Assembly: GCA_900316245.1 (NCBI GenBank) | Contig: ONCE01000012.1 | Coordinates: forward strand, 1 to 64,000 | Length of the DNA: 64,000 bases | Direction of reading: 5' to 3' | DNA from: an uncultured Bacteroidales bacterium | Lineage (GTDB): Bacteria; Bacteroidota; Bacteroidia; Bacteroidales; UBA932 | In this document: positions 38,906-53,881 of the stretch, one piece after another | Layout: every line of letters starts with the position of its first letter | How positions within the stretch are numbered: position 1 is the first letter of the stretch | The notes under the pieces: generated by a model | Seen by the model: only the letters and a program-made list of their open reading frames with translations | What the model was told of the DNA's origin: nothing | The model's database searches: none | Translations under genes and position numbers: made by a program

Positions 38906-38932
38906 CTCCCGCGCACGGATTTGCCCCTCCTG

Positions 38933-39042
38933 GTGCTCGGAACCTGGTATTCCCCCTTCCCGAGCACGAAAACGGCCTTATTGGTGCTCGGAACCTGGTA
39001 TTTCCCCTTCCCGAGCACGAAATCGCCCCTCCCGGTGCTCGG
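38933..39042. repeat. 51-bp periodic hairpin array (CGAGCAC/GTGCTCG stems)
   Basis: GTGCTCGG occurs at 38933, 38984 and 39035, exactly 51 bases apart; CCGAGCAC at 38960 and 39011. Two hairpins can be drawn with CGAGCAC left arms (38961 and 39012) and GTGCTCG right arms. The loop of the first reads GAAAACGGCCTTATTG, like the pair at 10335-10413. The intervening GGAACCTGGTATT is repeated as well. Confidence 0.75.
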
Positions 39043-39147
39043 AATGCACCCTCATCCCGGGCATTGCCCCGGGATCTCCCGTCCAGAGCGCAGTAGACGT
39101 GCCATTATCTGTCCCGTCTACCGCACCTCCCCGTCATTCTTGACGCC

Positions 39148-39232
39148 GCAGCCAGCAAAAATCGCCAAAAGTGCAGGCTGTCACGTCATGCGGAACGCCG
39201 CAGCCAGCAAAAAAGGCCAAAAGTGCTGGCTG
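39148..39232. repeat. Pair of hairpins 52 bp apart (CAGCCAGCA stems)
   Basis: Two copies of CAGCCAGCA, loops AAAATCGCCAAAAG and AAAAAGGCCAAAAG, right arms TGCAGGCTG and TGCTGGCTG. The 9-bp stem of the second copy is perfect. The copies are 52 bases apart, with similar spacers (CGTCAT...CGCCG) in front. Confidence 0.75.
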
Positions 39233-39299
39233 TCAGGTTATGGTTCGGTGGAGATATAAGGATCAGAAGAAGCGCGGGAGACAGTGCAACGCCCAGAAA

Positions 39300-39850
39300 A
39301 GCTTTGGGTGCGGTGCAAGAGCCTCTGCCAGCGGTTACGCCTCGTTTGCCTGTGGGCAAACGCCGCGCCCTTTCTTTAACCTACACCCCACCAGCGGTGC
39401 CAATGGCAACGTTCGTCACATGCCCTTAGGTTCAAAGGTTGGCACACATTTATTCGGGGGTCGGGTGCCGGGCCTTCGGCCCAGATAGGAAAATACCGTG
39501 AGATGGGTCATGGACCGCTGGCACTTAAGTCAATGATCATGTGATAGTTAACCACTATAACCCCCTTTCTCGAGATGGGGGTTTATGTATCTATTCTGTT
39601 GATTTATTGTGTGTTAAGTGCCAGACCCAAACTCCGTCACTTCCTTTTTTCTCTGCTTGAAGTGGGCAACGGGCAAACCCTGCATGGGCCCTTTAATGGA
39701 GCCCGTGCAGGGGTTGTTCCGTAGCAGCCGGATGTCGCATACTCCGGCTGCGGTGCCTTCCGTTCCTTTACCTTTCCCTCACAGCGGGCAACAGACGAAG
39801 TCTGTAGCCGCCGAGCCTCGTTACCGAGGCGGCGGTGCCCGTTTATCGGC
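39300..39850. other. Gene-free, hairpin-dense intergenic block
   Basis: No convincing gene. It holds several strong stem-loops: CGTTTGCC/GGGCAAACG (~39349-39368), GCAGCCGGA/TCCGGCTGC (~39724-39751), CAGAC/GTCTG (~39791-39802) and GCCGCC/GGCGGC (~39809-39832). Partly repeated lead sequences of the kind TTCCTTTACC...CAGCGGGCAAC precede some of them. The 107-bp element copy A lies inside. Possible readings are a decayed mobile element, structured RNA or a repeat sink. Confidence 0.5.
39518..39624. repeat. 107-bp palindromic element, copy A (divergent core)
   Basis: Starts CTGGCACTTAA and ends TTAAGTGCCAG, an 11-bp perfect terminal inverted repeat, exactly 107 bases long like the five copies at 47484-52786. 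Its central hairpin is AACCCCC/GGGGGTT (about 39559-39583) where the others have an ACGGGTAG-type stem. Confidence 0.8.
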
Positions 39851-39980
39851 CTAACGGTCCAAACCGTGGGACGTTAGGCAGGAATACATACCTAAACCAT
39901 ACCTAACGGTCCAAACCGTGGGACGTTAGGCAGGAATACGTACCTAAACCATACCTATCGGTCCAAACCTTGGGACGTTA
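39851..39980. repeat. 52-bp tandem palindromic repeats, about 2.5 copies
   Basis: CTAACGGTCC...GGGACGTTAG units start at 39851 and 39903; a variant CTATCGGTCC begins at 39955 and its right arm GGGACGTTAG ends the array. Spacers read GCAGGAATACRTACCTAAAC and a few more bases. Each unit folds into a ~9-bp stem. They lie just downstream of the minus-strand tyrS operon. Confidence 0.8.
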
Positions 39981-39994
39981 GAGCAGTAGCGGTC

Positions 39995-40522
39995 CTACAG
40001 CTGGAGGAGTGGAAAGGCGGCGAGGAGAGTGTCTTCGCGGGTGTTGGGGGTGGATTCGAGGAGGCGGCCGGCGGGGGTGAGGGCCAGTACGCGGTGGGCG
40101 ATGGCCAGCGCGTCGTTGAGGTCGTGGGAGGTGAAGAGGACGGCCATCCCGGTCTTGCGGGCGAGGTCCCGTACGGCGCTCAGCAGCAGCTGCCGCTCTT
40201 CGGGATTCAGATCGCGGGTGGGGTTGTCCAGGATCAGGACTTCCACCTTTCGGTTCAGGGCGGCGGCCAGGCAGTATTTGATGCGGCCCACAGTATCCAA
40301 CTCTTTCCATTGGCAGCCCGGCTTAAGTCCCAGCAGGGCCTGGGCGCCTTCTACGCGGGCATTCAAACGCAAAAATAACGGCCTTCTGAAGGAGACCAGA
40401 ACGCATTCCGGGCGGCGGCTTAGCTCCCGGAGAATTGGACGGCAACCGCTGCGGCCGGTGAGCAGCACGCACTCGCCGGAACCTAGATGGAAAGTGTGGG
40501 GACCCAGGTTGTACTCCGTCAT
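39995..40522 (-). CDS. Degenerate ABC ATPase-like protein
   Basis: A 175-residue relic-like ABC ATPase. The Walker A position reads GRSGCRPI, lacking the Lys-Ser/Thr that bind phosphate; no LSGGQ signature is present (VGRIKYCLAAAL stands there); Walker B is VLILDNPT with Asn for the catalytic Glu; the H-loop FTSHDL remains. It cannot be a normal ATPase, yet the frame is intact and overlaps the LolC/E-like gene by 4 bases. Perhaps it is a structural partner of that permease or a recently decaying LolD. It is the last gene of the tyrS-rbfA-lol operon. Confidence 0.7.
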   Translation of the reverse strand: MTEYNLGPHTFHLGSGECVLLTGRSGCRPILRELSRRPECVLVSFRRPLFLRLNARVEGAQALLGLKPGCQWKELDTVGRIKYCLAAALNRKVEVLILDNPTRDLNPEERQLLLSAVRDLARKTGMAVLFTSHDLNDALAIAHRVLALTPAGRLLESTPNTREDTLLAAFPLLQL

Positions 40523-41712
40523 TGCAACTTGCGGGAGGGGATGAGGGCCATCAGGAAGCCTACGCCGGCAACGCCCACCACCGTCCAGAGCAAGTCGGAC
40601 GCCTGGAGCACCACCGGATAGGAATTCACGATGAAATTGCCGGGCATCGGAACCAGGCCCCAGCGCTGCTGTGCCAGGACCAGCAACACGCCCAGAACCA
40701 GGCCAATAGCCATTCCCAGCAGCGACACCAGCCAGCCTTCCAGCAGGAAGATTTGGCGGAGCAGGGGTTCCGGGGCGCCCATAGCGCGGAGGGTTCCCGT
40801 ATCGGCCTTCTTCTCTATGACCAGCATCTTGAGGGAACTGTATATATTAAAGGCCACCAGCAGCACAATGAAAATGAGGATGAGGTAGATGGCCAGTTTC
40901 TCGTAGCGCATCATCCGGTACAGGGATTCGTCCTGCTGCACGCGGCTGAGCACGCGGTAAGAGGACCCCAGATGGGCCGATAAGTCTTTCTGCACGGCAT
41001 CGGCCTTTCCCGGAGCCGTCCAGATGTCCAGGGAGGAAACTTCGGTCTCGTATTCCAGCAGATTCCGCATCAGGCCGATGGGAACCAGCATCAGGCGGGC
41101 GTCTACGTCTGCATTGACGGAGAAGACCCCGGCCAGGCGCAGTTTGGCGCTGCGGAGGGAGGCCGAAGGGTTGGCCAGCGATACCGCCTTGGTGCGGGAA
41201 GGGTAGTAGACCTCGATGGGCGTGATGAAGCGGGGGCTCAGGCCCAGGCTGTGGGCCAGGCCGGCGCCCGCCACGCCAAAGGAAAGGTCTTCCCGCTGGA
41301 AGGCCCAGGAACCGTCGATGAGGTGGTCCTTCAGGAGGGATTCTTCCTGGGCTACCTCGTCCAGGCCCTTGAGGCGGGCCAGGCTCTGCTTGCCTTCATA
41401 GGATAGGAAAACCTGCTCTTCCAGCACGCTGGAGAAGCGGGTTACGCGTTCATCCGTGAGCAGGCCGCCGAAGGTGGCGCTGTCCGGAGTGAACACCTTG
41501 CCCGTGGCCGGACGCACCACAAGGTCTGCCTTTGCGTCGGCCAGGGAGTTGGCTACCAAATCGTTGAATCCGTTGAAAACGGAGAGGATGATGACCAGGG
41601 CCGCCGTGCCCACCGCCATACCGGCTACCCCTATACCCGAAATCATATTGATGACATTGTACGATTTGCGGGCAAAGAGATAACGGAAGGCGAATCTCAG
41701 CGGCAGGTTCAC
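40519..41712 (-). CDS. LolC/LolE-like ABC transporter permease
   Basis: 397 residues with an N-terminal membrane segment (MISGIGVAGMAVGTAALVII), a ~220-residue periplasmic domain, and three C-terminal segments (YLILIFIVLLVAFNIYSSL and two more), the FtsX/MacB layout of lipoprotein-release permeases. LolCDE extracts lipoproteins from the inner membrane for transfer to LolA. Its normal ATPase partner LolD is not here; the adjacent ATPase-like gene is degenerate, so the energy source must come from elsewhere or the complex is altered. Overlaps rbfA by 4 bases. Confidence 0.88.
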   Translation of the reverse strand: MNLPLRFAFRYLFARKSYNVINMISGIGVAGMAVGTAALVIILSVFNGFNDLVANSLADAKADLVVRPATGKVFTPDSATFGGLLTDERVTRFSSVLEEQVFLSYEGKQSLARLKGLDEVAQEESLLKDHLIDGSWAFQREDLSFGVAGAGLAHSLGLSPRFITPIEVYYPSRTKAVSLANPSASLRSAKLRLAGVFSVNADVDARLMLVPIGLMRNLLEYETEVSSLDIWTAPGKADAVQKDLSAHLGSSYRVLSRVQQDESLYRMMRYEKLAIYLILIFIVLLVAFNIYSSLKMLVIEKKADTGTLRAMGAPEPLLRQIFLLEGWLVSLLGMAIGLVLGVLLVLAQQRWGLVPMPGNFIVNSYPVVLQASDLLWTVVGVAGVGFLMALIPSRKLQ

Positions 41713-42056
41713 TTTTTCAAGAGTTCTTCAATGTGCTGGGCGTAGTCCAGGGAAGTATCCAGAAGGAAAACCAGTTCGGGTACAATGCGGAACTGCTTGG
41801 CCACCACGTGACCCAGCTCTCCGCGGAGGGCTTTGTTGTTCTCTTCCAGCAGGGCCATCACCGGCTCCTGCTTCTCGGAAGGGAAGATGCTCACGAAAAC
41901 CTTGGCAACCGACAGGTCCGGGCTCACACGGACCTCGCTTACCGTCACCAGGGCGCCGTCAAAGGCGGCCATACCCTTGGACCGGATAATCTCTGCCAGG
42001 TCTTTCTGGATTTCGCGGGCAACCTTGAGTTGCCGGGTGCTTGCGGGTTTTTCCAT
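41709..42056 (-). CDS. rbfA: Ribosome-binding factor A
   Basis: 115 residues, KH-like. Binds the 30S subunit late in maturation and helps 16S 5'-end processing. Start RQLKVAREIQKDLAEII and the core VTVSEVRVSPDLSVAKVFVSIFP are typical. The stop of tyrS and the ATG overlap (TAATG); the rbfA stop overlaps the LolC/E-like ATG by 4 bases. Confidence 0.95.
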   Translation of the reverse strand: MEKPASTRQLKVAREIQKDLAEIIRSKGMAAFDGALVTVSEVRVSPDLSVAKVFVSIFPSEKQEPVMALLEENNKALRGELGHVVAKQFRIVPELVFLLDTSLDYAQHIEELLKK

Positions 42057-43342
42057 TACTTGACGTGAATGATAAAGTAGTTCTTCTTACCCTTCTGGGC
42101 CAGGATGTAGTGACCGTTGACAATATCGGCCTTGGTTACCTCGGCGTTGATGTCCGTCACCTTGTCCTTGTTGATGGCGATGCCGTTGCCCTGGATCATC
42201 TTGCGGGCTTCTCCCTTGGAGGGGAGGATGGCGGTCTTCACGGCCAGCAGGTCCATAATGTTGCAGGGAAGATCGGCCTCTGTGATGTCGAAGGAAGGGA
42301 CGTCTCCGAAGACGGCGAGGAAGGTACGCTCGTCCAGTTTCTTGAGGGCCTCGGAGTTGCCGCCGAAGAGCATCTGGCTGGCTTCCAGGGCCTTGTCGTA
42401 GGCTTCCTGTCCGTGGCACATTACGGTGACTTCGCGGGCCAGGACTTTCTGGAGCTCGCGGGCGCCGGGGTTCTCGCGGTGGCGGGCAATCAGGTCTTCG
42501 ATGGTGGGGCGGTCCAGCAGGGTGAAAATCTTGATGTAACGCTCTGCGTCGTCATCGGCCACGTTGAGCCAGAACTGGTAGAACTCGTAGGGCGAGGTGC
42601 GTTCTGCGTCCAGCCATACGTTGCCCTTCTCGGTTTTGCCGAACTTGGTGCCATCGGCCTTTCTGATGAGCGGGCAGGTGAGGGCGAAGGATTCTCCGCC
42701 TTCGATTCTGCGGATGAGCTCGTTGCCGGTGGTGATGTTGCCCCACTGGTCCGAACCGCCGAACTGCAGGATGCAGCCGCGGTTTTTCCAGAGCCAGTAG
42801 AAATCGTAGCCCTGCATAAGCTGGTAGGAGAATTCCGTGAAGGACATACCCTCGCTGGATTCGCGGGAAAGACGCTTTTTCACGGAATCCTTGGCCATCA
42901 TATAGTTGACGGTGATGTGCTTGCCAATGTCACGGATGAAGTTGATGAAGGTGTAGTCCTTCATCCAGTCGTAGTTATTGACCAGTTCTGCCTTGTTGGG
43001 GGCGTCGGAGTCAAAGTCCAGGAAGCGGGCCAGCTGGGCCTTGAGGCAAGCCACGTTGTGGTTGAGGGTTTCCTCGTCCAGGAGGTTGCGCTCTGCGCTC
43101 TTCATAGAGGGGTCACCGATCATACCGGTGGCGCCGCCAACCAGGGCGTAGGGCTTGTGGCCGCAGCTTTGGAAATGCTTCAATATCATTACGCTTACCA
43201 GGTGGCCGATATGGAGGGAATCGGCGGTGGGGTCAATGCCCACATAGGCCGCCTGAGGGCCTTCCATCAGTTTCTCTTCCGTTCCGGGCATGATGTCCTG
43301 GATCATGCCTCTCCACCTGAGCTCTTCTACAAAATTCTTCAT
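42056..43342 (-). CDS. tyrS: Tyrosyl-tRNA synthetase
   Basis: Class I synthetase, 428 residues. HIGH motif in [10 protein letters not shown], tyrosine pocket around [12 protein letters not shown] and [16 protein letters not shown] equivalent KFGKTEKG, and an S4-like C-terminal RNA-binding domain ([19 protein letters not shown]). A TATCTTTG box lies 29 bases upstream. No T-box-type leader is seen. First gene of a four-gene operon. Confidence 0.96.
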
Positions 43343-43370
43343 ACCAACTGTATCTTTTCTAAAAAACGCA

Positions 43371-43398
43371 CAAAGATACGAAAATTTGTGTATTTTTG
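43371..43398. promoter_or_regulatory. Divergent -7 boxes of tyrS and the M16 peptidase gene
   Basis: Minus strand TATCTTTG (plus CAAAGATA at 43371-43378) for tyrS; plus strand TATTTTTG at 43391-43398, 28 bases before the peptidase ATG. Neither has a clear -33 TTTG. Confidence 0.55.
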
Positions 43399-43426
43399 TC
43401 CTGCATTAAGTTAGTAGCTAAGGGAT

Positions 43427-46312
43427 ATGAAACGTTTTATTTTTCTTTTTGCTGTGGCCGCTGCCGTGGCCCTCTCAGCCTGTTCCCGTTATGAGACGGT
43501 CCAGGGAGACCCCATGGATGTAAAAATCTACACGCTTAAGAACGGTCTTAAGGTGTATATGTCCGTCAACCGGGACGAACCCCGTATTCAAACCTATATG
43601 CCCGTCCGCGTGGGCGGCAAGGATGACCCCGCAGACAACACCGGTCTGGCCCACTACCTGGAACATATGATGTTCAAGGGCACGGAGATTCTGGGAACCC
43701 AGGATTACGAGGCCGAAAAGCCCCTCCTGGCCCAGATTGACAGCCTGTTCGAGGTATACCGCACCCTCACGGACCCCGCCGAGAGGGAAGCGCTGTACGC
43801 CAAGATTGACGCCGTGAGCTATGAGGCATCCAAGCTGGCCATCCCCAACGAGTACGACAAGCTGATGTCCGTGATTGGCTCCGAGGGCTCCAACGCCTTT
43901 ACCAGCGAAGACGTCACCTGCTATGTGGAAGAGATCCCTTCCAACCAGGTGGAGAACTGGGCCCGCATCCAGGCCGACCGTTTCAAGAACTGCGTCTTCC
44001 GCGGATTCCACACGGAGCTGGAGGCGGTGTATGAGGAGAAGAATATGTCTATGATGGACGACGAGGAAAAGGCCATCGACGCCCTCAATGCGATGCTGTT
44101 CCCGCACCATCCCTACGGTACCCAGACCGTGATTGGCACCCAGGACCACCTCAAGAATCCTTCCCTGAAGGCCATCCGCAAGCAAAAGGATACCTATTAC
44201 GTTCCCAACAATATGGCCATCTGCCTGTCCGGTGATTTCGATCCCGACGAGATGGTACGGATCATCGAGAAATACTTTGGCGACTGGGAGCCCAATCCCA
44301 ACGTGCCTCAGCGCACCGTGGTGGCCGAAGATCCCGTTTCCCAGCCCCTCTCCCGTGACGTTTACGGTTTCGAGGGCGAGTTTGTGCTGATGGGCTGGCG
44401 CACCCCCGGCAGCGCCTATGAGAATGCCGAGTACGGAGACCTGGCCAGCGACATCCTTTCCAACGGCCTCGCCGGCCTGATCGATCTGGATGTGATGCAG
44501 GCCCAGAAGGTGCTGGATGCATCCGTCTCTCCCTATTCCCGTACAGACTGGGGCCTCCTCCTGGCCGAGGTAAAGCCCAAGGACGGCCAGACCTTGAAAG
44601 AGGCCGAAGAGATCATTAAGGAACAGGTGGCCCGCCTGGCTGCCGGAGAATTCTCCGATTCCCTCCTGCAGGCTGCCAAGGCCAACTACCGCCTGGCCAT
44701 TATGAACAGTATGGAGAACAACCGTTCCCGTGCCGGTTTGATGATGAATTCCTTCGTGGACGGCCGTGACTGGGCCTCCACCGTGGCCAAGATCAAGAAT
44801 ACCGAGGCCATTACCAAGGACCAGATGGTGGCCTGGGCCCAGCAGAACCTGGTGCCCGAGACCTACGCCGTGGTTTACAAGCATTCCGGTCCCGACCCGT
44901 CCGTCAAGCGCATCAGTGCCCCCAAGATTACCCCCATTGTCACCAACCGTGACAAGCAGAGCGCCTTCCTCCAGGAGATTGCCAGTGCCCCTGTGGCCCC
45001 CATCGAGCCCGTGTTCGTGGACTTTGAGAAAGATATGGTGGTAGACAATTTCGAGGGTATGGAACTCCTCTACAAGCAGAACACCAAGAACGACATTGCC
45101 ACCCTTACCCTGTGGTTCGATTTCGGAAGCAATGACGACCCTGTTCTCCCTATGGCCTCCGACTACATCCGCTTCCTGGGCTTCCCGGGTATGTCCCCTC
45201 AGGATATCCTGGTGGAACTGTACACCCTGGCCTCCAAGTGGAATATGAACGTGAGCTCCGACCTTACCACCCTCACCATCCGCGGCCTGGGCGAGAATAC
45301 CGCCAAGGTGCTGGATCTGGGTGCTTCGCTGGGACGCCACGCCATTCCGGATTTATCGGCCCTGGATGGTCTGAAGGCCGATATCATCCGCTCCCGTGCC
45401 GACGCCAAGAAGCGTCAGGGTGCCTGTAACGCCGCTCTTCAGAACTATATGATGTACGGCCCCGAGCTGATCAAGGCTTCCACCCTTACCAACGAGCAGG
45501 TGATGAACCTCACAGCGGCCGATCTGGTGAAGAGCTTTATGCAGCTGTTTGGCTACAAGCACCGCATCCTCTATTACGGACCTGCCTCCCTGGAGGAGGT
45601 CAAGGCCATCCTGGCTAACCACAAACTGGGTGAACTGAAGCCCGTGAAGAGCGCGCGTCCTCCCAAGATCCATACCCGTGAACCCAAGGTTTATGTGGGC
45701 GACTACAACTCCCGCCAGTTCAGTTATTTGCAGTACTCCAACCGCGGCGAGTCCCTCATTATGGAACAGATTCCTTACATCGATCTGTTCAATGAGTACT
45801 ACGGTTCCGGTATGAACTCCATCGTGTTCCAGGAGATGCGTGAGTCCCGCGCCCTGGCTTACCGCGCCGGTGCCAGCCTCGTGCTGCCCACTTTCACCAA
45901 CGACGATTATTATTTCCGCGCCACCATTGCCTCCCAGAACGACAAGCTCCGTAAGGCCGTGGAAGGCTTTGAAGAGATCATCGAGACCCTGCCCGAGTCT
46001 CCCGAGAACCTGGAGATTGCTAAGAGCGCCATCCTCAATAAGATTCGCACGCAGCGCTATCACGGTATTTCCGTCCTGTACCAGTACATCCGCAACAAGG
46101 AACTGGGCCTCACCGTGCCCCGGGAGAAGATTGTCTACGACAAGGTGGGCAGCCTCACTATGTTCGACCTCCTGTCCACCCACGAGGACTGGGTCCGCGG
46201 CCGTACTTATCACTACGCCATCCTGGGAGACGTGAAGGACCTGGATATGGACTTCCTGCGTACCCTGGGAACGGTTAAGGTGGTGACTCCGGAAGAAATG
46301 TTCGGTTATTAA
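43427..46312 (+). CDS. M16-family metallopeptidase lipoprotein
   Basis: 961 residues, a full two-lobed pitrilysin/insulinase-type peptidase. Lipoprotein signal MKRFIFLFAVAAAVALSACS. The zinc site HYLEH (HxxEH) lies near residue 76, with a distal Glu in ELEAVYEEKN (~205-214). The second, inactive M16 lobe starts about residue 535. It probably degrades peptides in the periplasm or at the outer membrane. Between H-motif and distal Glu an unusually long insert (~70 residues) is present, which some Bacteroidota members share. Co-transcribed with the serine hydrolase 11 bases downstream. Confidence 0.92.
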   Translation: MKRFIFLFAVAAAVALSACSRYETVQGDPMDVKIYTLKNGLKVYMSVNRDEPRIQTYMPVRVGGKDDPADNTGLAHYLEHMMFKGTEILGTQDYEAEKPLLAQIDSLFEVYRTLTDPAEREALYAKIDAVSYEASKLAIPNEYDKLMSVIGSEGSNAFTSEDVTCYVEEIPSNQVENWARIQADRFKNCVFRGFHTELEAVYEEKNMSMMDDEEKAIDALNAMLFPHHPYGTQTVIGTQDHLKNPSLKAIRKQKDTYYVPNNMAICLSGDFDPDEMVRIIEKYFGDWEPNPNVPQRTVVAEDPVSQPLSRDVYGFEGEFVLMGWRTPGSAYENAEYGDLASDILSNGLAGLIDLDVMQAQKVLDASVSPYSRTDWGLLLAEVKPKDGQTLKEAEEIIKEQVARLAAGEFSDSLLQAAKANYRLAIMNSMENNRSRAGLMMNSFVDGRDWASTVAKIKNTEAITKDQMVAWAQQNLVPETYAVVYKHSGPDPSVKRISAPKITPIVTNRDKQSAFLQEIASAPVAPIEPVFVDFEKDMVVDNFEGMELLYKQNTKNDIATLTLWFDFGSNDDPVLPMASDYIRFLGFPGMSPQDILVELYTLASKWNMNVSSDLTTLTIRGLGENTAKVLDLGASLGRHAIPDLSALDGLKADIIRSRADAKKRQGACNAALQNYMMYGPELIKASTLTNEQVMNLTAADLVKSFMQLFGYKHRILYYGPASLEEVKAILANHKLGELKPVKSARPPKIHTREPKVYVGDYNSRQFSYLQYSNRGESLIMEQIPYIDLFNEYYGSGMNSIVFQEMRESRALAYRAGASLVLPTFTNDDYYFRATIASQNDKLRKAVEGFEEIIETLPESPENLEIAKSAILNKIRTQRYHGISVLYQYIRNKELGLTVPREKIVYDKVGSLTMFDLLSTHEDWVRGRTYHYAILGDVKDLDMDFLRTLGTVKVVTPEEMFGY

Positions 46313-46323
46313 TTTATAGGATT

Positions 46324-47457
46324 ATGTTTAAGAAAATTCTGTTTCTTGCAGGAGCAGCGGCCCTGGCCCTTTCCTGCGCAGAGAGCCACCAGAAGGCTTT
46401 TGAAAAAGATTTGGAAGCTTACCGCCAGGAAATTGGCAATGTGGGTATGGCCGTAGCGGTGGTCAAGGACAACAAGATTGTCTACAGCCACGAGTTCGGT
46501 GTAGCCGACCGCGAGACCGGCGCTCCCGTGAAACAGAATTCTCTTTTCCGCATAGCCTCCATTTCCAAGAGCTTCAGCGCCACTTCCATCCTGCAGCTGG
46601 TGGAGAAGGGCCTGGTATCGCTGGATACCGATGTGAGCACCCTGGCCGGTTTCCCCATCCGCAATCCCAAGTTCCCCGAGAAGGTCATTACCCTGGAGAT
46701 GCTGCTCTCGCACACCTCCAGCCTCAATGACAGCGAGGGTTACTTTGAACTGGACGTGGTGAACCCGGAGGTGAATCCCAACTGGGCCAACTGCTACAAC
46801 GACTACGAGCCCGGCAAGGGTTACGAGTACTGCAACCTGAATTTCAACCTGGTGGGCACCTTTATCGAGAAGCTCTCCGGTGAACGCTTCGACCAGTATG
46901 TGGTCCATCACGTGCTGGAGCCCCTGGGCCTGTACGGCGGCTACTGCGTGGACTCCCTGGATGCCTCCCGTTTCGTGAAACTGTATGCTTATGAGAACGG
47001 CCAGTTCGTTGAGGAGGAGGCTGCTTACGCTCCCCGCAGCGAGCGCATTGCCAACTACCGTTTCGGCTACGATACGCCCGTCTTCTCTCCCACCGGCGGT
47101 ATGAAGATATCGGCCTGTGACCTGGCCCGCTATATGATGATGCATATGGGGTGGGGGACCGCTCCGGACGGCACCGTCATCATCTCCGAGGCCTCTTCCC
47201 GCAGTATGCAGACGCCCCGCTCCGACCCTGAGCACTACGGCCTGGCCCTGTGGCACGACTATGCTATGATTCCGGGCGTAGAGCTGGTGGGCCACACCGG
47301 CGGCGCCTACGGTCTCCGCAGCGCGATGTTCTGGGCCCCCGACCGCTCCTTCGGCCTGGTCTGCATCTCCTCCGGCACCTACGGCGACTTCGAGGACGAG
47401 CAGAGCGGTGTCCTGGAAGGCACCCTCCAGCGCCTCTACAAGTATTTCTGCAAATAG
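46324..47457 (+). CDS. Serine hydrolase lipoprotein (class C beta-lactamase fold)
   Basis: 377 residues; lipobox in MFKKILFLAGAAALALSCAE. The beta-lactamase/DD-peptidase motifs are SISK (nucleophile Ser, residues ~76-79), YCN in GYEYCNLNFN, and HTGG near residue 322. The family includes DD-peptidases, esterases and D-amino-acid amidases; resistance to beta-lactams should not be assumed. It contains the codon run ATA TCG GCC for Ile-Ser-Ala at 47111-47119, one of the GGCCGAT-motif sites. It ends 26 bases before 107-bp element copy B. Confidence 0.9.
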   Translation: MFKKILFLAGAAALALSCAESHQKAFEKDLEAYRQEIGNVGMAVAVVKDNKIVYSHEFGVADRETGAPVKQNSLFRIASISKSFSATSILQLVEKGLVSLDTDVSTLAGFPIRNPKFPEKVITLEMLLSHTSSLNDSEGYFELDVVNPEVNPNWANCYNDYEPGKGYEYCNLNFNLVGTFIEKLSGERFDQYVVHHVLEPLGLYGGYCVDSLDASRFVKLYAYENGQFVEEEAAYAPRSERIANYRFGYDTPVFSPTGGMKISACDLARYMMMHMGWGTAPDGTVIISEASSRSMQTPRSDPEHYGLALWHDYAMIPGVELVGHTGGAYGLRSAMFWAPDRSFGLVCISSGTYGDFEDEQSGVLEGTLQRLYKYFCK

Positions 47458-47483
47458 GTGCCTCTGGTTCGCCGGTTCGCCCG

Positions 47484-47590
47484 CTGGCACTCAACGCTCT
47501 GACATTCAGCCTTTTAACAACACGGACGGGTAGCTCCAGGCTACCCGTTCAGTGTATTATGTATTTGATAATCAGCGTGGTAAGTGCCAG
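47484..47590. repeat. 107-bp palindromic element, copy B
   Basis: CTGGCACTCAA ... GGTAAGTGCCAG; central hairpin ACGGGTAG/CTACCCGT. Exactly 107 bases. The last 19 bases contain the 3' end and stop codon of the RAYT gene on the other strand. Confidence 0.9.
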
Positions 47591-48495
47591 GGGTCTAAGC
47601 GAAGAAATTTCGCTATCTGCCTTGAACTGGCCTCCGTTTTGGACCTCAGAAGGGCCGAAACCGCATTCCTCTCCCTCTCCGGCCAGGACAGGATGTCGTG
47701 GACATCGGCCAGCCCATATTTCTTTACCAGAATCTGCGACATCTGAGCGTACACTTTGTCGTCCCAACCCACGAACTCTTCTTTCAATTCAAACTCCGAT
47801 CCTTTGGAATTATGCATGGCCGATAGCATTCCTTCCCAGTCTCCAAAGTAAGCCATGGCTAGCGGAAAGTCTATGTATTGATAAGCGGTTATTATGAAAT
47901 CCGTAAGTTGCTGCCTCTCTACAGGATTCAGAGGCTCGGTTATCCGCCGCAGGGTGGTATAGGATAAGGGCCGATCCGCTTTTCGGCAGGCCTTAACCTC
48001 CTGGATTGCCCTCCTCATCGGCCTGGAAGCATAATCCAGGTGCAGCTTTTCAGAAAATGGATGATCACTTTTGGCGTAGGCCAGGAACGACCACCGATAC
48101 TCCTCAGCCGTGGCGGACAAACGTCGTTCAGGCCCATTGTTCCCCAGATAAATCAGATGGGAACGGACGTCTTTACCGTGTACTTTGGGCGCACTTCCAA
48201 ACGGCTTGAAGAGCGGGGCATCCCGATGGCAGGTTACATTGTGAGCCCGGGCGAAGTGGCTGGTGTAGTCTTGAACGAAATCGGCCAGGGCCCATTCCCT
48301 CTCGGCAACCACACTCGCATGTAGATGGTCCGGCATCAGTATCTGGGACAGGACCTTCACGGGATGGCGACGGGATGCAACGCTGATATGCGTGAAGCAA
48401 ACCAGATAGTCAATGACACAGTAAAAGATTACCTCACCATTGATGGTTTTCTGATAACAATGGTTAACAGAACCGGATATAAACTTTCTCTTCAT
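47572..48495 (-). CDS. REP-associated tyrosine transposase (RAYT, Y1 HUH type)
   Basis: 307 residues of the IS200/IS605-like Y1 family. The HUH motif is in MPDHLHASV (~residues 54-62) and the catalytic Tyr probably in DFVQDYTSHFAR (~73-84). RAYT enzymes cut and join single-stranded REP/REPIN hairpins. Beyond the ~145-residue catalytic part is a long extension ending in a helix-turn-helix-like segment (AVSALLRSKTEASSRQIAKF), as in some Bacteroidota members with a DnaA-C-like tail. The gene lies between copies B and C of the 107-bp element, and its last codons (Trp-His-Leu-Pro-Arg-stop) are read from copy B's terminal repeat. No IS ends of its own are seen, as expected for a domesticated RAYT. 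Confidence 0.88.
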   Translation of the reverse strand: MKRKFISGSVNHCYQKTINGEVIFYCVIDYLVCFTHISVASRRHPVKVLSQILMPDHLHASVVAEREWALADFVQDYTSHFARAHNVTCHRDAPLFKPFGSAPKVHGKDVRSHLIYLGNNGPERRLSATAEEYRWSFLAYAKSDHPFSEKLHLDYASRPMRRAIQEVKACRKADRPLSYTTLRRITEPLNPVERQQLTDFIITAYQYIDFPLAMAYFGDWEGMLSAMHNSKGSEFELKEEFVGWDDKVYAQMSQILVKKYGLADVHDILSWPERERNAVSALLRSKTEASSRQIAKFLRLDPWHLPR

Positions 48496-48555
48496 AATGA
48501 TCCAAGGCCACTAATTGGCCCGGATAAAGCTATACAGAATTGTTGTTAAAACCCA

Positions 48556-48601
48556 CAATCGTAAAAAAAGTAATTGAAATTTTTGCTGTTTTTTACGATT
48601 G
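48556..48601. repeat. 13-bp perfect inverted repeat upstream of the RAYT gene
   Basis: CAATCGTAAAAAA (48556-48568) and TTTTTTACGATTG (48589-48601) with a 20-base AT-rich loop. It sits between the RAYT start and copy C. It could be an operator, a RAYT substrate or a weak bidirectional terminator. Confidence 0.7.
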
Positions 48602-48655
48602 CGCCGTTTACCCTCACAAAAGAACGGGAGAATGAAGGGGCACGCCCTCCTACCG

Positions 48656-48762
48656 CTGGCGCTCAACTCGCTAACTCACAGCCTTTTAACAACACGGACG
48701 GGTGGCTCCAGACTACCCGTTCAGTGTGTTATGTGTTTGATAATCAGTCTGGTAAGTGCCAG
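48656..48762. repeat. 107-bp palindromic element, copy C
   Basis: CTGGCGCTCAA ... GGTAAGTGCCAG; central hairpin ACGGGTGG/CTACCCGT. Exactly 107 bases, extended to CGCTGGC and GCCAGCG at the ends. It is directly followed by the duplicated promoter and signal-peptide cassette. Confidence 0.9.
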
Positions 48763-48786
48763 CGTGCATTGCTTTATTATTTTTAC

Positions 48787-48794
48787 TACTTTTG
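48787..48794 (+). promoter_or_regulatory. -7 box of the alpha/beta hydrolase gene (cassette copy 1)
   Basis: TACTTTTG, only 7 bases before the ATG at 48802, so the message would be nearly leaderless. The same box, spacing and following coding bases recur on the minus strand at 52648-52655. Confidence 0.6.
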
Positions 48795-48801
48795 CAGTGC
48801 T

Positions 48802-49602
48802 ATGAAAAGAACTCTGATACTGATTGCGCTTCTGGTGGTGACAGCCTGTGCCATTCGGACTTATACCTTCAGTGCTGAGGAGCTTAAGCTCCACAGTGGA
48901 GAGAAGGAAGTGTATGGCATCCTTTATCGGCCCGATGGCCTCAAAAAGGCTCCGCTTGTGATCATTTCCCACGGCTTTGGCGGCACCAATCTGTTTGGAA
49001 AGGCCTATGCGGAGGCCCTGGCCCCGCTGGGTTACGCCGTTTATTGCTTTGATTTCTGCGGCGGCTCCAACTTCAGCCGCTCGGAAGGAAAGACCTCGGA
49101 GATGTCCATCTTCTCGGAGGCCGATGACCTCAAGGCCGTCATGGACCAGCTCGGCGGCATGGATTTCATTGACACCGGGCACATCCTTCTGCTGGGAGAA
49201 AGCCAGGGCGGTATGGTCTCCAGCCTGGTGGCAGCCGAAAGGCCGGACCGCGTAGAGCGCCTGCTGCTCATCTATCCAGCGTTCTGTATCAAGGACGACT
49301 GGGTCAAGATGTATCCCACCCTGGACGATATGCCGGAAGAAGTAGACTTCTGGGGAATGAAACTGGGCCATCCTTATCTGGAGGGACTGTACAACCTGGA
49401 TGTGTACGAAACCATCGCCCAGTACAAGGGCCCTGTGGCCATCTTCCACGGCGACCAGGACCAGGTGGTGAACATCTCTTACGCCCAGCGGGCCGAAGAA
49501 GCCTACAAGAACTGTACGCTCACCATCCTGCCCGGCGAGGGGCACGGTTTCAGTCCCGAAGCCCAGGCGCAAGTGATAGAAGCCATAAAGAAGCTGTTAT
49601 AG
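48802..49602 (+). CDS. Alpha/beta hydrolase lipoprotein
   Basis: 266 residues from ATG 48802. Signal MKRTLILIALLVVTAC, with Cys as the lipid site. Alpha/beta-hydrolase features: oxyanion strand VIISHGFGG, nucleophile elbow LLGESQGG (Ser ~135), Asp in FHGDQDQVV and His in GEGHGFS. Probably an acyl esterase or peptidase acting in the envelope; substrate unknown. The frame is open further upstream through element copy C, but those residues are translations of the repeat. Its first ~14 codons are the same at the DNA level as those of the 161-residue protein at 52155-52640, although the mature parts are unrelated. Confidence 0.88.
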   Translation: MKRTLILIALLVVTACAIRTYTFSAEELKLHSGEKEVYGILYRPDGLKKAPLVIISHGFGGTNLFGKAYAEALAPLGYAVYCFDFCGGSNFSRSEGKTSEMSIFSEADDLKAVMDQLGGMDFIDTGHILLLGESQGGMVSSLVAAERPDRVERLLLIYPAFCIKDDWVKMYPTLDDMPEEVDFWGMKLGHPYLEGLYNLDVYETIAQYKGPVAIFHGDQDQVVNISYAQRAEEAYKNCTLTILPGEGHGFSPEAQAQVIEAIKKLL

Positions 49603-49604
49603 CG

Positions 49605-49711
49605 CTGGCGCTCAAATAGCTGAAATACAGCCTTTTAACAACACGGACGGGCAGCTCCAGGCCACCCGTCCAATGCGTTATATATTTGATAATCAGCTCG
49701 GTAAGTGCCAG
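49605..49711. repeat. 107-bp palindromic element, copy D
   Basis: CTGGCGCTCAA ... GGTAAGTGCCAG; hairpin ACGGGCAG/CCACCCGT. Exactly 107 bases. It begins 2 bases after the hydrolase stop and ends 13 bases before the stop of the XRE gene. Confidence 0.9.
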
Positions 49712-49724
49712 CCCAAAACGGGCG

Positions 49725-49934
49725 CTACTCTTCCGGCTTATATTCCAGGATATCTCCCGGTTGGCAGTCCAGGGCTTTGCAGATGGCCTCCATGGTACTG
49801 AGCCGGATGGCCTTCGCTTTGCCGCACTTGAGGATGGAAAGATTGGCGGGGGTGATGCCGACTTTCTCGGCCAGCTCGCCGGAAGACATTTTCCGGCGGG
49901 CCAGCATTACATCAATATTGGTGATGATCGGCAT
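49725..49934 (-). CDS. XRE-family HTH regulator
   Basis: 69 residues consisting of one Cro/C1-type helix-turn-helix (MSSGELAEKVGITPANLSIL as the core). Resembles the small YozG-like regulators. It lies 6 bases after the flotillin gene in the same direction, so it is the third gene of that operon; what it controls is unknown. Confidence 0.88.
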   Translation of the reverse strand: MPIITNIDVMLARRKMSSGELAEKVGITPANLSILKCGKAKAIRLSTMEAICKALDCQPGDILEYKPEE

Positions 49935-49940
49935 AGGCGC

Positions 49941-51320
49941 TTACTTTTCGGGCTGGGGCTGCTCTTCCGGGGTCTTACCCTTGAGGTAGGACGGGAGCTC
50001 CATACCGGCCATCTTGAAGAGGTCGTCGAGCGGAGGAACGCTCTTCATCATACCGGAAATGAAGTTGGAAGTAGCGGTCTTGCCGTCGGTTCCGTTGCCG
50101 GTATCCCAGACGGTTACCTTGTCGATGTTGATGCCCTTGACGGCCTCTACCTGGGTCTTCACCAGTTCGGGCAGTTTGTCGGCAATCATCATCAGGACGG
50201 CCTTCTGGGCGTCTCCCTCGGCGGCGTTCACCAGGTTCTTGAAACCATCGGCCTGCTTGGTGAGGATTTCCAGCATACCCTTTGCCTGGGCGTCCATCTT
50301 GGCGAAGATAGCGTCGGCTTCACCCTTTGCCTTGCGGCGGATCTGCTCGGCTTCGGCCTCGGCCTCGATGATCTTCTTCTGCTTGTCAATCTCAGCTGCC
50401 ACAACGATGTTGGCCTTCTGGGTGGCCTCTTCACGTTCGGCACGGGCCAGTTCGGCGTCACGCTCACTCTGGTATGCTTCTTCCAGAGCCTTTGCGGCCT
50501 GCACCTTTTCTGCGGCCACGGCTATGCGGTCGGCCTCAGCGGTCTTCTGACGACGGAGAGCGTCGGAGTTGGCAATCTCAATCTTGGCGGTGTTTTCACC
50601 CTTCACGGCGTCTGCGTCTGCAGCGGCCACGTTGATACGGGTGTCCTTGTCGGCGTTGGCCTTACCGGTTTCACCGTAACGGTTCTGCTCAGCCACGGAC
50701 TTCTTGGCGTCGTTGATGGCCTTGGCGGCGGCTTCCTTACCCAGGGCCTCGATGTAGCCGGACTCATCGCGGATATCGGTTACATTCACGTTGATGAGCT
50801 TGAGGCCAATCTTGCGGAGTTCGGCCTCCACGTTGGTGGAAACGTTGGCCAGGAACTTGTCGCGGTCGGCGTTGATTTCCTCGATATCCATAGTAGCGAT
50901 GACCAGACGGAGCTGACCGAAGAGGATATCGGTAGCGATGTTCTGGATGCTGTCCACGCTCAGGCCCAGCAGACGCTCAGCGGCGTTGGTCATATTCTCG
51001 GGCTCGGTGGAGATACCCACGGTGAAGCGGCAGGGAACGTCTACGCGGATGTTCTGTTTGGACAGGGCGTTGGTGAGGTTGCATTCGATGGAGATGGGCT
51101 TGAGGTCCAGGAAGGCATAGTCCTGGAAGACAGGCCAGATAAAGGCGGCGCCGCCGTGGATACAACGGGCCGAAGAAATGGAGCCGGCACCGTTCTTGCC
51201 GGTTTTACCGTAGATGACAAGGATCTTGTCGGAGGGGCAGCGACGATAGCGCTTGAGGATGGCCGAAAGGGTGACGAACACCACGGCCACGATGATGAGG
51301 ATCAGATACAGTTGAGTCAT
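49941..51320 (-). CDS. Flotillin-family (SPFH/Band 7) membrane protein
   Basis: 459 residues: an N-terminal membrane segment (LYLILIIVAVVFVTLSAIL), an SPFH domain (~30-220) and a long Ala/Glu/Lys/Arg coiled coil (~220-380) with many EAEAEQIRRKAKGEADA-type heptads, then a Pro/Glu-rich end. Flotillins form oligomeric scaffolds in membranes. With the NfeD-like gene just upstream it matches the widespread YuaF-YuaG pairing. Confidence 0.9.
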   Translation of the reverse strand: MTQLYLILIIVAVVFVTLSAILKRYRRCPSDKILVIYGKTGKNGAGSISSARCIHGGAAFIWPVFQDYAFLDLKPISIECNLTNALSKQNIRVDVPCRFTVGISTEPENMTNAAERLLGLSVDSIQNIATDILFGQLRLVIATMDIEEINADRDKFLANVSTNVEAELRKIGLKLINVNVTDIRDESGYIEALGKEAAAKAINDAKKSVAEQNRYGETGKANADKDTRINVAAADADAVKGENTAKIEIANSDALRRQKTAEADRIAVAAEKVQAAKALEEAYQSERDAELARAEREEATQKANIVVAAEIDKQKKIIEAEAEAEQIRRKAKGEADAIFAKMDAQAKGMLEILTKQADGFKNLVNAAEGDAQKAVLMMIADKLPELVKTQVEAVKGINIDKVTVWDTGNGTDGKTATSNFISGMMKSVPPLDDLFKMAGMELPSYLKGKTPEEQPQPEK

Positions 51321-51322
51321 AA

Positions 51323-51931
51323 TTATACGGTATATGTATTACTTTCTTCTACTAAAAGGGTATTGGCATCCAGGGCGTCTACCACGCGGATGGAAGTGCC
51401 GGTCTTGAGCGGGGTGTCACTCTCCGTCACGGCATCGTACTCGCGGACAGCGCCGTTGATGGTGATCTGTACCTTGCCGGAACCGCTTCTGCCTTCGGGG
51501 ATGGTAAGGTACACCTTGCCCTCGCAGCCGGCGGCCGAACGCTGCAGGTTGATGTTACCGCTCTGCTGCATGCCGGACAGCCATTTGAACAGGTACATCA
51601 CGGCTGCCACCAGAGCTATGCCGATGAGCACGGAGAGGATGATCCGGAGCGGCACCGAGGGAACGCTTTCCTGCAGGAGGATGGCGCTCCAGCCAAAGCC
51701 CAGGATGAAGTTCACAAAGTTACGGAAGGTGTACAGATTGGACCCGCCGTCAATGTTGGAGAGATCTGCTCCGTCCATAGAGGTATCCACATCTACGTCG
51801 AAGTTCGAGTCTGCATCGGCCCCTATGAAAGTAAGGACACTTTGGATGATGAACACGAGCGAAGCCGTAAGGGTGACGCCCCAGAGGATTTTCATAACAA
51901 GGCTGAGTTCAGCCCACCAGGTAGCAATCAT
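51323..51931 (-). CDS. NfeD-like membrane protein (YuaF type)
   Basis: 202 residues with two or three membrane segments (MKILWGVTLTASLVFIIQSV and RIILSVLIGIALVAAVMYLF) and a C-terminal OB-fold of ~75 residues (SAAGCEGKVYLTIPEGRSGS onward). It lacks the ClpP-like protease part of long NfeD proteins. It is the partner of the flotillin encoded 2 bases downstream. Promoter at 51956-51963. Confidence 0.88.
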   Translation of the reverse strand: MIATWWAELSLVMKILWGVTLTASLVFIIQSVLTFIGADADSNFDVDVDTSMDGADLSNIDGGSNLYTFRNFVNFILGFGWSAILLQESVPSVPLRIILSVLIGIALVAAVMYLFKWLSGMQQSGNINLQRSAAGCEGKVYLTIPEGRSGSGKVQITINGAVREYDAVTESDTPLKTGTSIRVVDALDANTLLVEESNTYTV

Positions 51932-51955
51932 AGCGTTTCAGTGTTTGTTTGATGC

Positions 51956-51963
51956 AAATTTAG
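51956..51963 (-). promoter_or_regulatory. -7 box of the NfeD-flotillin operon
   Basis: Minus strand TAAATTTG (plus CAAATTTA), 24 bases before the NfeD ATG; an ATTG sits about 19 bases further upstream as a partial -33 box. Confidence 0.6.
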
Positions 51964-52031
51964 TAAATAATTATTGATTTGCAATAAAAATTTTAGAAAT
52001 TTTGATGTGGTGGTTCTTGTGGCAAAGTCCG

Positions 52032-52138
52032 CTGGCACTTACTAGGCTGATTATCAAGCACATAACACACTGAACGGGTAGCCTGGAGCCGCCCGTCCGT
52101 GTTGTTAAAATACTGTATTTCAGAGAGATAGTCGCCAG
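52032..52138. repeat. 107-bp palindromic element, copy E (inverted)
   Basis: CTGGCACTTAC ... TCGCCAG on the plus strand; relative to copies B-D it is inverted. Exactly 107 bases, hairpin ACGGGTAG/CCGCCCGT. The ATCTCTCTGAAATACAG-type arm is the most diverged part. Confidence 0.88.
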
Positions 52139-52154
52139 CGCAATAATGCGCCAT

Positions 52155-52640
52155 CTACACGCTTAGAAGGATTCTGTCTTCTCCCAGTTCTTTCTCCAGG
52201 CCCTTCCTCAGGGAACGGACCAGTCTCCAAGAGACGCTTTTCACGGCCTTGAAACCGTTGGACAGATTGGCCCAGTCGTAAACCGTCTCACCCGTCCAGA
52301 CGTCGGTTCCGTCCTTTCGGCGGACGGTAGGGGTCATGTAATAGGTTTTGCTGGTGATGGAGTGCTGCGAACGGCCGGAATGCCCTTCCACGTAAAGCAC
52401 AAAATCGGCCTCCTTGAGGCTTTCGACCACCTTCCAGCGGGCATCCTGGGTCAGGAATTCTACAATGTATTCGGCCTTCTCGTCAAAGTCACCGGTCTTG
52501 TCGTCAAAGACCACGAAGACCTTGTTCCCAGGCTTCACCAGCTCCCGCAGTTCCTGGGTAGTCACACCTCCCTGGAGTTGTGCCACCGCCGTGAGGCTGG
52601 TCACCACCAGAAGCGCAATCAGTATCAGAGTTCTTTTCAT
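52155..52640 (-). CDS. Small exported protein of unknown function
   Basis: 161 residues from ATG 52640. Signal MKRTLILIALLVVTSLTAVA, cleaved before QLQGG. The mature part (~140 residues) is mixed alpha/beta with VFVVFDDKTGDFD, ADFVLYVEGHSGR and a C-terminal basic helix (SWRLVRSLRKGLEKEL); I recognise no family, though the style recalls DUF4136-like periplasmic proteins. Its promoter and first codons are a copy of those of the alpha/beta hydrolase at 48802. The message is nearly leaderless (TACTTTTG ends 7 bases before the ATG). Confidence 0.75.
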   Translation of the reverse strand: MKRTLILIALLVVTSLTAVAQLQGGVTTQELRELVKPGNKVFVVFDDKTGDFDEKAEYIVEFLTQDARWKVVESLKEADFVLYVEGHSGRSQHSITSKTYYMTPTVRRKDGTDVWTGETVYDWANLSNGFKAVKSVSWRLVRSLRKGLEKELGEDRILLSV

Positions 52641-52647
52641 AGCACTG

Positions 52648-52655
52648 CAAAAGTA
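52648..52655 (-). promoter_or_regulatory. -7 box of the small exported protein gene (cassette copy 2)
   Basis: Minus strand TACTTTTG (plus CAAAAGTA), 7 bases before the ATG at 52640. Same as cassette copy 1. Confidence 0.6.
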
Positions 52656-52679
52656 GTAAAAAAAATAAAGCAAAATACG

Positions 52680-52786
52680 CTGGCACTTACTAGATTGACT
52701 ATCAAACACATAACACACTAAACGGGTGGCTTCAGGCTACCCGTCCGTGTTGTTAAAAGGCTGTGAGTTAGCGAGATGAGTGCCAG
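52680..52786. repeat. 107-bp palindromic element, copy F (inverted)
   Basis: CTGGCACTTAC ... GAGTGCCAG; inverted relative to copy C and closest to it (both have CTCGCTAACTCACAGCC in the outer arm). Exactly 107 bases, hairpin ACGGGTGG/CTACCCGT. Directly followed on the minus strand by cassette copy 2. Confidence 0.9.
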
Positions 52787-52811
52787 CGGTAGAAGGGTGC
52801 GGTTTTTTTCG

Positions 52812-52840: not shown

Positions 52841-53881
52841 ATGAATACACACGTGGTAATTATGGCCGGTGGTATTGGAAGCAGGCTGTGGCCGCTCTCT
52901 ACGCCGGATGTTCCCAAACAGTTTATCGATGTGCTGGGCGTGGGCCGCAGTCTCATCCAGCTCACCGTAGACCGCTTTGCACCCGTCTGCGCTCCGGACC
53001 ACTTCTGGGTGGTGACGGGGGAGAAGTACGTGGACCTGGTGAAGGAGCAGCTGCCCGCCATTCCGGAAGACCAGATTCTTGCCGAACCGGAAGGCCGCAA
53101 CACCGCCCCCTGCATCGCCTATGCCTCGTGGAAGATTTGCAAGAAAGATCCTGATGCCAATATAGTGGTAACGCCGGCCGATGCCCTGGTCCTCAAGACG
53201 GAGGAGTTTGCCAGTACCATAGCCAAGGCCCTGGCCTTTACCGAGGAGCGGGACGCCATTGTAACCGTGGGCATCACGCCCTCCCGTCCGGAAACCGGTT
53301 ACGGCTACATCCACGCCACCGAGGCCCTTCACGGACAGCTGGTGAAAGTGAGCGAGTTCAAGGAAAAACCGGACCTGGATACCGCCCTGGCCTATCTGGA
53401 AGACGGACACTATTTCTGGAACGCCGGTATCTTTGTATGGAATGTGGGCACCATTGTCCGGGAACTCCGGGCCTATGTGCCGGAGATTGCCGCCGTGATG
53501 GATGAGCTGGCCCCTTCCTTCTTTACGGAAAAGGAAACGCCCGAACTTCGCCGCCTGTTCCCCACCTGCGAGAAGATTTCCATAGACTACGCCGTGATGG
53601 AAAAGTCTCCTTATATCTATGTGATTGCGGAAGATCTCGCCTGGAGCGACCTCGGAAGCTGGGGCTCCATCCAGACTCATTTAAAGGCCGATGAAGACGG
53701 TAACGCAGTGGTGGGCAAGGACGTACGTCTGTTCGACTGCCAGAACTGCTTCGTGCACACCGCCTCGGAGAAGACGGTAGTGGTGGAGGGCCTGGACGGA
53801 TACATCGTGGCCGAGTCCAAGGACCGCCTCCTGGTATGCCGCCTTTCGCAGGAACAGCACATCAAAGAATTCAGCGCTTAA
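52841..53881 (+). CDS. manC: Mannose-1-phosphate guanylyltransferase
   Basis: Makes GDP-mannose from GTP and mannose-1-phosphate for surface glycans and GDP-fucose. 346 residues, the single-domain (GMP) form without the phosphomannose isomerase part. Nucleotidyltransferase signature GGIGSRLWPLSTPDVPKQF, then EPEGRNTAPCIA, VTPADALV, RPETGYGYI, KPDLDTA and AEDLAWSDLGSW. It stands alone between 107-bp copy F and the tRNA-Lys genes. Confidence 0.93.
   Translation: MNTHVVIMAGGIGSRLWPLSTPDVPKQFIDVLGVGRSLIQLTVDRFAPVCAPDHFWVVTGEKYVDLVKEQLPAIPEDQILAEPEGRNTAPCIAYASWKICKKDPDANIVVTPADALVLKTEEFASTIAKALAFTEERDAIVTVGITPSRPETGYGYIHATEALHGQLVKVSEFKEKPDLDTALAYLEDGHYFWNAGIFVWNVGTIVRELRAYVPEIAAVMDELAPSFFTEKETPELRRLFPTCEKISIDYAVMEKSPYIYVIAEDLAWSDLGSWGSIQTHLKADEDGNAVVGKDVRLFDCQNCFVHTASEKTVVVEGLDGYIVAESKDRLLVCRLSQEQHIKEFSA

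Follow-up and report, generated by a model that had tools for sequence, protein, structure and literature searches.

The 64,000-nt stretch analysed here (the window; contig ONCE01000012.1, positions 1 to 64,000, from an uncultured Bacteroidales bacterium of the UBA932 lineage) carries a gene for a REP-associated tyrosine transposase (RAYT; REP, repetitive extragenic palindrome) in the company of short palindromic elements (Table 1). RAYT biology rests mainly on the GTAG hairpins of Gammaproteobacteria. An initial annotation of the window placed six 107-nt elements here, two of them flanking the RAYT gene. All six are real, each extending over 107 nt from CTGGC to GCCAG, and E1 and E2 do lie on either side of the gene. 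In the 64 kb, six CTGGC...GCCAG pairs have a span of 107, whereas no other span between 80 and 139 is represented more than once. A covariance model composed of 47 elements from relatives, none taken from the window, recovers only these six sites at E<=1 (11 rows over both strands), with better-strand E values of 7e-5 to 0.06. This model extends both ends by one base, giving 109 nt, and E2, E4 and E5 extend as CG...CG to 111. The six are, however, not copies of a single element, as the annotation had implied. Five of them (family A) share 77-88% oriented pairwise identity, whilst the sixth is only 46-53% identical to these in either orientation and is a member of a second family (B) with the same ends and length. 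Because this copy is too unlike the others to be oriented, the reported four-to-two split in orientation becomes three (E1-E3) against two (E4 and E5).

The window RAYT possesses an HUH motif and, in its Y1 domain, a catalytic tyrosine followed by asparagine, as in RAYT/TnpA-REP proteins; H57, H59, Y116, N119 and N120 are invariant in 27 (A1) and 45 (A3) aligned sequences. The HUH domain is followed by a predicted helical C-terminal part of ~170 aa. In structure comparison, the protein is nearer to a solved RAYT (4ER8, the E. coli protein) than to the IS200/IS605 TnpA. It scores 25.2 bits against NCBIfam NF047646, under the 80-bit cut-off, and 17 bits against Pfam Y1_Tnp, under the 23-bit cut-off, although both models are matched at E<=0.1 by 27/27 members. 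As the curated cut-offs are not reached, it is a divergent relative and not a REP_Tyr_transpos equivalog by that model.

The elements belong to a scaffold shared across the genus. The flanks of RAYT paralogs were scanned for ungapped palindromes with at least seven of the outer 8 bases matching and arms at least 56% matching, at 93 loci whose flanks were complete (drawn from two sources with some overlap, so that the same locus is sometimes repeated). A palindrome of at least 95 nt was found on some side at 64 of the 93 loci, and on both sides at 21, whereas five block shuffles of every flank yielded no such palindrome. The 64 loci are a lower bound, because an ungapped scan misses elements with unequal arms, and they show the RAYT gene flanked by its own palindromic repeats, as is characteristic of RAYT/TnpA-REP. 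Hit lengths are tightly grouped, 90 of 92 falling within 100-119 nt; the two others (96 nt and 155 nt) were excluded from further analysis. Among the 90, 80 share less than 80% identity with each other, and their profile-anchored length is exactly 108 nt in 47 and 104-109 nt in 72. The arm consensus reads CGT-N7-AA-nT-nn-YTGATWATCAG-nnnn-TTAcgcAAA.

The 47 elements of 108 nt, selected for that length, align without gaps. Pairing of column i with column 109-i holds in 74.3% of cells, compared with 57.0% for shuffled and 37-39% for slid partners, and the covariation score is 0.512 versus 0.199. Two-sided changes cluster in columns 1-10 (with 99-108), where the scan, by requiring matching outer bases, itself accounts for part of the covariation in roughly the first eight columns, and in columns of about 40-51 (with 58-69). 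Pairing is poor in columns 13-37, which nevertheless contain the conserved boxes. Whole elements fold better than shuffles (z -5.73), whilst single arms (first 40 nt, n=94) do not (mean z -0.30). In the minimum-energy folds, 38/47 elements form 8 or more of the 12 terminal pairs, and 36/47 form 10 or more of the 14 apical pairs. The resulting fold consists of a 12-bp terminal stem (CGT-N7-AA, in which N7 varies by family) and a 14-bp apical hairpin. Between the two lies a symmetric stretch of unpaired bases that holds a TTA box and a conserved CTGATNATCAG-like box. The elements and their near-constant length, the stem pairing, the RAYT link, lineage specificity and the rearranged gene blocks described below are all results of direct computation on these genomes.

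The covariance model was searched in 61 genomes, with rows counted over both strands and relatedness uncorrected; 63 candidates were scored per genome, so that high row counts are lower bounds. Within the genus, 23 genomes with a RAYT match have a median of 40 element rows, as against 1.5 in 14 without (Mann-Whitney p 1.3e-4, Spearman 0.71), and 24 genomes of other genera hold 12 rows in total, found in five of them. Elements thus go with RAYT presence in general, with G030, G011 and G036, considered below, as exceptions. A profile re-search of the 14 RAYT-negative genomes gave partial HUH matches in six, and one genome counted as positive (G027) shows only weak partial matches by profile. A search with 14 families in 14 genomes gave 251 matches in all, and those listed covered at least 131 distinct places. 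Each of these places lies in the genome from which its family was taken or, in the case of four families, in one of G061, G062 and G063. These three genomes also carry RAYT relatives, the one concerning the E58 family in G063 being a putative ortholog. Families with at least 26, at least 26 and at least 20 places among the matches listed occur in G019, G065 and G005, respectively.

These results are probably best explained by a RAYT-element system of this Bacteroidales genus, in which the RAYT acts on the elements and their copies then recombine. The RAYT would recognise the element as a single strand folded into one long hairpin, cut its ends and then re-insert or copy it, often near its own gene. 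Family A would have stayed by its gene, with other families dispersing across their genomes. Where several similar palindromes lie close to the RAYT, they may then act as recombination sites through which blocks are inverted, lost or relocated. Binding, cleavage and mobility would follow by analogy with published RAYT work (PMC8266576), and the recombining agent may be RecA or the RAYT itself. The near-perfect terminal inverted repeats are also reminiscent of ordinary miniature inverted-repeat transposable elements (MITEs), which a different (DDE) transposase might have moved and which would lie near the RAYT by chance. This is very improbable, as the elements stand beside many divergent RAYT genes (64/93 loci, zero in shuffles), go with RAYT presence and, as judged by eye from the window copies and those of B, lack an obvious target duplication.

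A number of observations weigh against a RAYT-element system. Selection preceded the fold analysis, in that elements had to show matching outer 8 bases and overall palindromy and only those anchored at 108 nt were aligned; the palindromy threshold biases the remaining pairing, although the apical stem was not itself a scan requirement. The genus model scores family A weakly, and at genome scale recovers only two of its five copies at E<=0.05. The genome comparison is uncorrected for relatedness, and single genomes depart from it: in G030 (97% complete), at least 63 element rows stand against no RAYT match, whether at E 1e-6 or by profile, perhaps because the transposase was lost, falls in a gap of the assembly or is an HUH gene of more distant kind; G011 has 28 rows and only partial HUH matches; and the RAYT of G036 contains an in-frame TGA stop, with zero element rows in that genome. 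RAYT and element similarity are weakly correlated overall (62 loci; ends, r 0.11, 41/2000 permutations; hairpin, r 0.16, 1/2000), not significantly so for the box region (r 0.10, 254/2000), and strongly only above 60% RAYT identity (36 pairs). Finally, a search of five relatives with the joined flanks of three of this genome's dispersed elements found no clean empty site among the three. Site C4 shows a 135-nt gap in G061 around the 107-nt element, more likely a deletion since the gap is not a clean 107 and a more distant genome keeps the element; C18 gave no clean alignment and C33 a match on one flank only. No viral contigs were found, and the single PHROGs match (E 0.062) is uninformative.

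The missing empty site, together with the confinement of all five family A copies to the RAYT, would also suit a model in which selection keeps the elements as palindromes with a structural or regulatory function (as terminators, as nucleoid sites or in RNA stability) and they are not RAYT-mobile, the RAYT at most regulating itself via the flanking copies. At 28 of 48 loci the downstream element contains the RAYT stop codon or has it at its edge, which argues that the flanking copy is part of the gene end, and in seven loci, the window included, this stop is a TGA at element offset 16-18, the site of the CTGAT box. However, families with 20 or more places and their own sequences imply repeated spread, and these have no matches in the unrelated genomes searched. 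In addition, families A and B have the same ends and length with divergent interiors, which fits end recognition. Static palindromes of this kind are therefore considered a rather unlikely explanation.

The two window families differ in their distribution in the genome (a draft of 2.24 Mb, 93% complete). BLAST (E<=0.001) places family A only at 47.5-52.8 kb of the window contig, so that A is confined to the RAYT neighbourhood, whereas B (11 copies) is dispersed. The strict end pattern, with spans of 94-124 nt allowed, finds 11 elements in this genome, all of 107 nt, and zero in 60 relatives, whilst the genus model at E<=0.05 finds 23 places, comprising two of family A and none of B. The 11 copies of B (10 BLAST places combined with the end pattern) are all embedded in a mosaic repeat, whose sequence continues past one or both ends of the element. 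In the sister genome G061, a RAYT ortholog (86% identical) and parts of the mosaic are present, and B has no match. On these two grounds, B is best described as a mosaic-repeat module with family-A-like ends, outside the RAYT cluster, and its interpretation as an independent RAYT-dispersed REPIN was rejected. One mosaic copy (C22:34234) holds another hairpin where B would be and was dropped as a candidate empty site for that reason.

The mosaic itself is composed of palindromic modules (window 39298-39844; L158, L036-L042, L146-L149), occurs at about a dozen places in the genome, with parts present in G061, and has B at one of its joints. Three short tandem arrays of 51-52-nt period surround the B copy (38907-39059, 39132-39235 and 39850-40005). 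At L040, to the left of the B copy there, the flank and first bases of B are tandemly duplicated, and at L044, upstream of the RAYT, are tandem duplications of flank and element end (GGGGCGTGAAATG units); both are perhaps traces of end processing. Elsewhere in the window, five tandem 51-nt units (11650-11904), 84-67% identical to the first, possibly encode a 17-residue repeat.

Table 1. Elements and genes around the RAYT locus of the window (gene names other than SPFH, hydrolase and beta-lactamase-family are open reading frame (ORF) readings)
Feature	Position	Strand	Remarks
Family B element	39518..39624	+	Family-A-like ends and length, different interior; module of mosaic repeat at ~39.3-39.85 kb
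E1, family A	47484..47590	+	Overlaps RAYT 3' end and supplies its TGA stop; model ends 47483-47591
RAYT-type HUH/Y1 transposase, 307 aa	47572..48495	-	N-terminal HUH domain and C-terminal part
E2, family A	48656..48762	+	Upstream of RAYT and of hydrolase gene
Alpha/beta hydrolase gene	48802..49602	+	Start codon read from sequence
E3, family A	49605..49711	+	Found by end-pair scan, BLAST and covariance model
Block S, three genes	49725..51931	-	Orientation relative to RAYT varies by species
Small HTH-like gene of block S	49725-49934	-	Label from ORF reading
SPFH/Band 7 gene of block S	49941-51320	-	
202-aa gene of block S	51323-51931	-	No Pfam match; NfeD-like is our own label
E4, family A, inverted	52032..52138	-	Weakest to covariance model, E 0.059
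161-aa ORF (ORF161)	52155..52640	-	Upstream region and first codons duplicated before hydrolase (198 nt, 91%)
E5, family A, inverted	52680..52786	-	Between 161-aa ORF and ManC-like gene
ManC-like gene	52841-53881		Label from ORF reading

Around the RAYT, genes form blocks whose order varies by species, and most junctions carry an element. With E and E' denoting the two element orientations, bLac the beta-lactamase-family gene and S the HTH-SPFH-202aa block, the window reads bLac/E/RAYT/E/hydrolase/E/S/E'/ORF161/E'/ManC. The corresponding locus of G061 (two contigs joined by a 30-nt overlap, with aligned stretches 83-92% identical to the window) reads bLac, ~0.5 kb extra/E/RAYT/E/S/E'/hydrolase reversed, ORF161/E'/ManC, the hydrolase thus lying reversed on the other side of the SPFH block and having a different N-terminus. 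S and RAYT are jointly inverted relative to ManC in G005 and G063, and ManC and RAYT are inverted with S kept in G062 and G065. In all, assemblies of six genomes display four distinct block orders, and the flanks are collinear where present (TyrS-M16 on one side, UvrD on the other). No element lies at the hydrolase-ORF161 junction of G061 or the RAYT-S junction of G062. At the second RAYT of this genome, G061 has both the BlaI-BlaR-like and the RAYT2 block reversed without a change of place; this locus of G061, too, spans two contigs, and the joints carry elements. The window also contains an inverted 198-nt duplication (48645-48842 and 52600-52797, 91%), comprising an element together with the upstream region and first codons of the hydrolase and ORF161.

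How these rearrangements arose can be explained in two ways. Quite possibly, and with a probability not far from even, they reflect RecA recombination between repeats, or errors in metagenome assembly, the RAYT having no catalytic role: 107-nt repeats that are 77-88% identical could recombine or mislead assembly, all the genomes are drafts and the G061 loci were joined from two contigs by short overlaps. Set against this are the four different orders in the assemblies of six genomes, with outer genes collinear where present, the similar picture at the RAYT2 locus and the copied upstream region and first codons of the hydrolase, a real sequence difference from G061. This explanation is compatible with a RAYT-element system and denies only the part of the RAYT in inversion. 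A second, distinctly unlikely model proposes that the RAYT is itself the recombinase of a gene-block shuffler, inverting or moving blocks between near-palindromic elements. If so, the genus would carry HUH-driven, element-bounded invertible neighbourhoods, and one gene would have gained a new upstream region and signal-sequence start by this route.

A RAYT-element system with these properties would extend over dozens of families within one gut Bacteroidales genus, each lineage with its own version. The divergent RAYT lineage is associated with a single scaffold of near-constant length that preserves its shape although most of its letters vary. The families accordingly let features probably read by the protein (fold, CTGAT box, ends) be told from those that drift, and the system allows a direct test of whether a RAYT remodels surrounding gene order.

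The closest known systems include the REPIN/RAYT pairs, TnpA-Y1 subclasses 2.6 and 2.4, the TIRYT/TIRtrons and the transposases of IS608/ISDra2 (IS200/IS605). In common with REPIN/RAYT, as described in PMC3116915 and PMC2817692, a RAYT-type HUH gene is flanked by palindromic elements that form genome-specific families, and the whole element can fold into one hairpin. It also has conserved ends and is dispersed, although family A itself is not; intergenic position was checked in the window. The REPIN-like reading of the initial annotation is partly supported. Two inverted REP units, each with its own palindrome, are absent from the 94 arms, which do not fold alone, and there is no conserved GTAG foot: GT[AG]G in the first 20 nt is enriched (32/94 arms versus 13.9 expected) and not conserved, and 66 of 94 arms start with CGT, so that GT is common. 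Further differences are the nearly constant length of ~108 nt, the succession of terminal stem, unpaired conserved boxes and apical hairpin, and the large predicted helical C-terminal part of the RAYT.

Within the Bacteroidetes, genes of TnpA-Y1 subclass 2.6 (Bertels group 5) are flanked by 'atypical secondary structures' with copies elsewhere (PMC6006769, available sections). Subclasses 2.6 and 2.4 share with the present system the host phylum and the HUH/Y1 domain, and the Y-x-x-N-N motif here resembles the YIxNNP of subclass 2.4. However, their median lengths are 179 and 194 aa, compared with ~307 aa here, including an extra ~170 aa, and those sections give no fixed length, fold or consensus for the 2.6 repeats. 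TIRYT genes are RAYT-like and have on their flanks inverted repeats that do not consist of GTAG REPs; some of these repeats overlap the gene, some are self-complementary and some form families (PMC3733652, accessible text). Flanking inverted repeats are found here too, whereas the TIRYT motif GGGGWSAS is absent from the consensus (a comparison at consensus level), and no common length or covarying fold is described for TIRtrons in that text. Shufflons and other invertible regions likewise have blocks between inverted repeats whose orientation differs between genomes.

In some published genomes, REPs accumulate near the rayt gene and their abundance tracks rayt (PMC2817692). Local accumulation and rayt co-occurrence are thus already precedented there, as is repeat-gene overlap in PMC3733652. 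No published constant-length elements with a Bacteroidales RAYT were recognised in the literature searched, subscription papers lying outside it. As far as seen, three features appear to be new: the extra C-terminal part of the RAYT, the near-constant length combined with a covarying scaffold common to dissimilar families, and the rearranged blocks, most of whose junctions carry elements.

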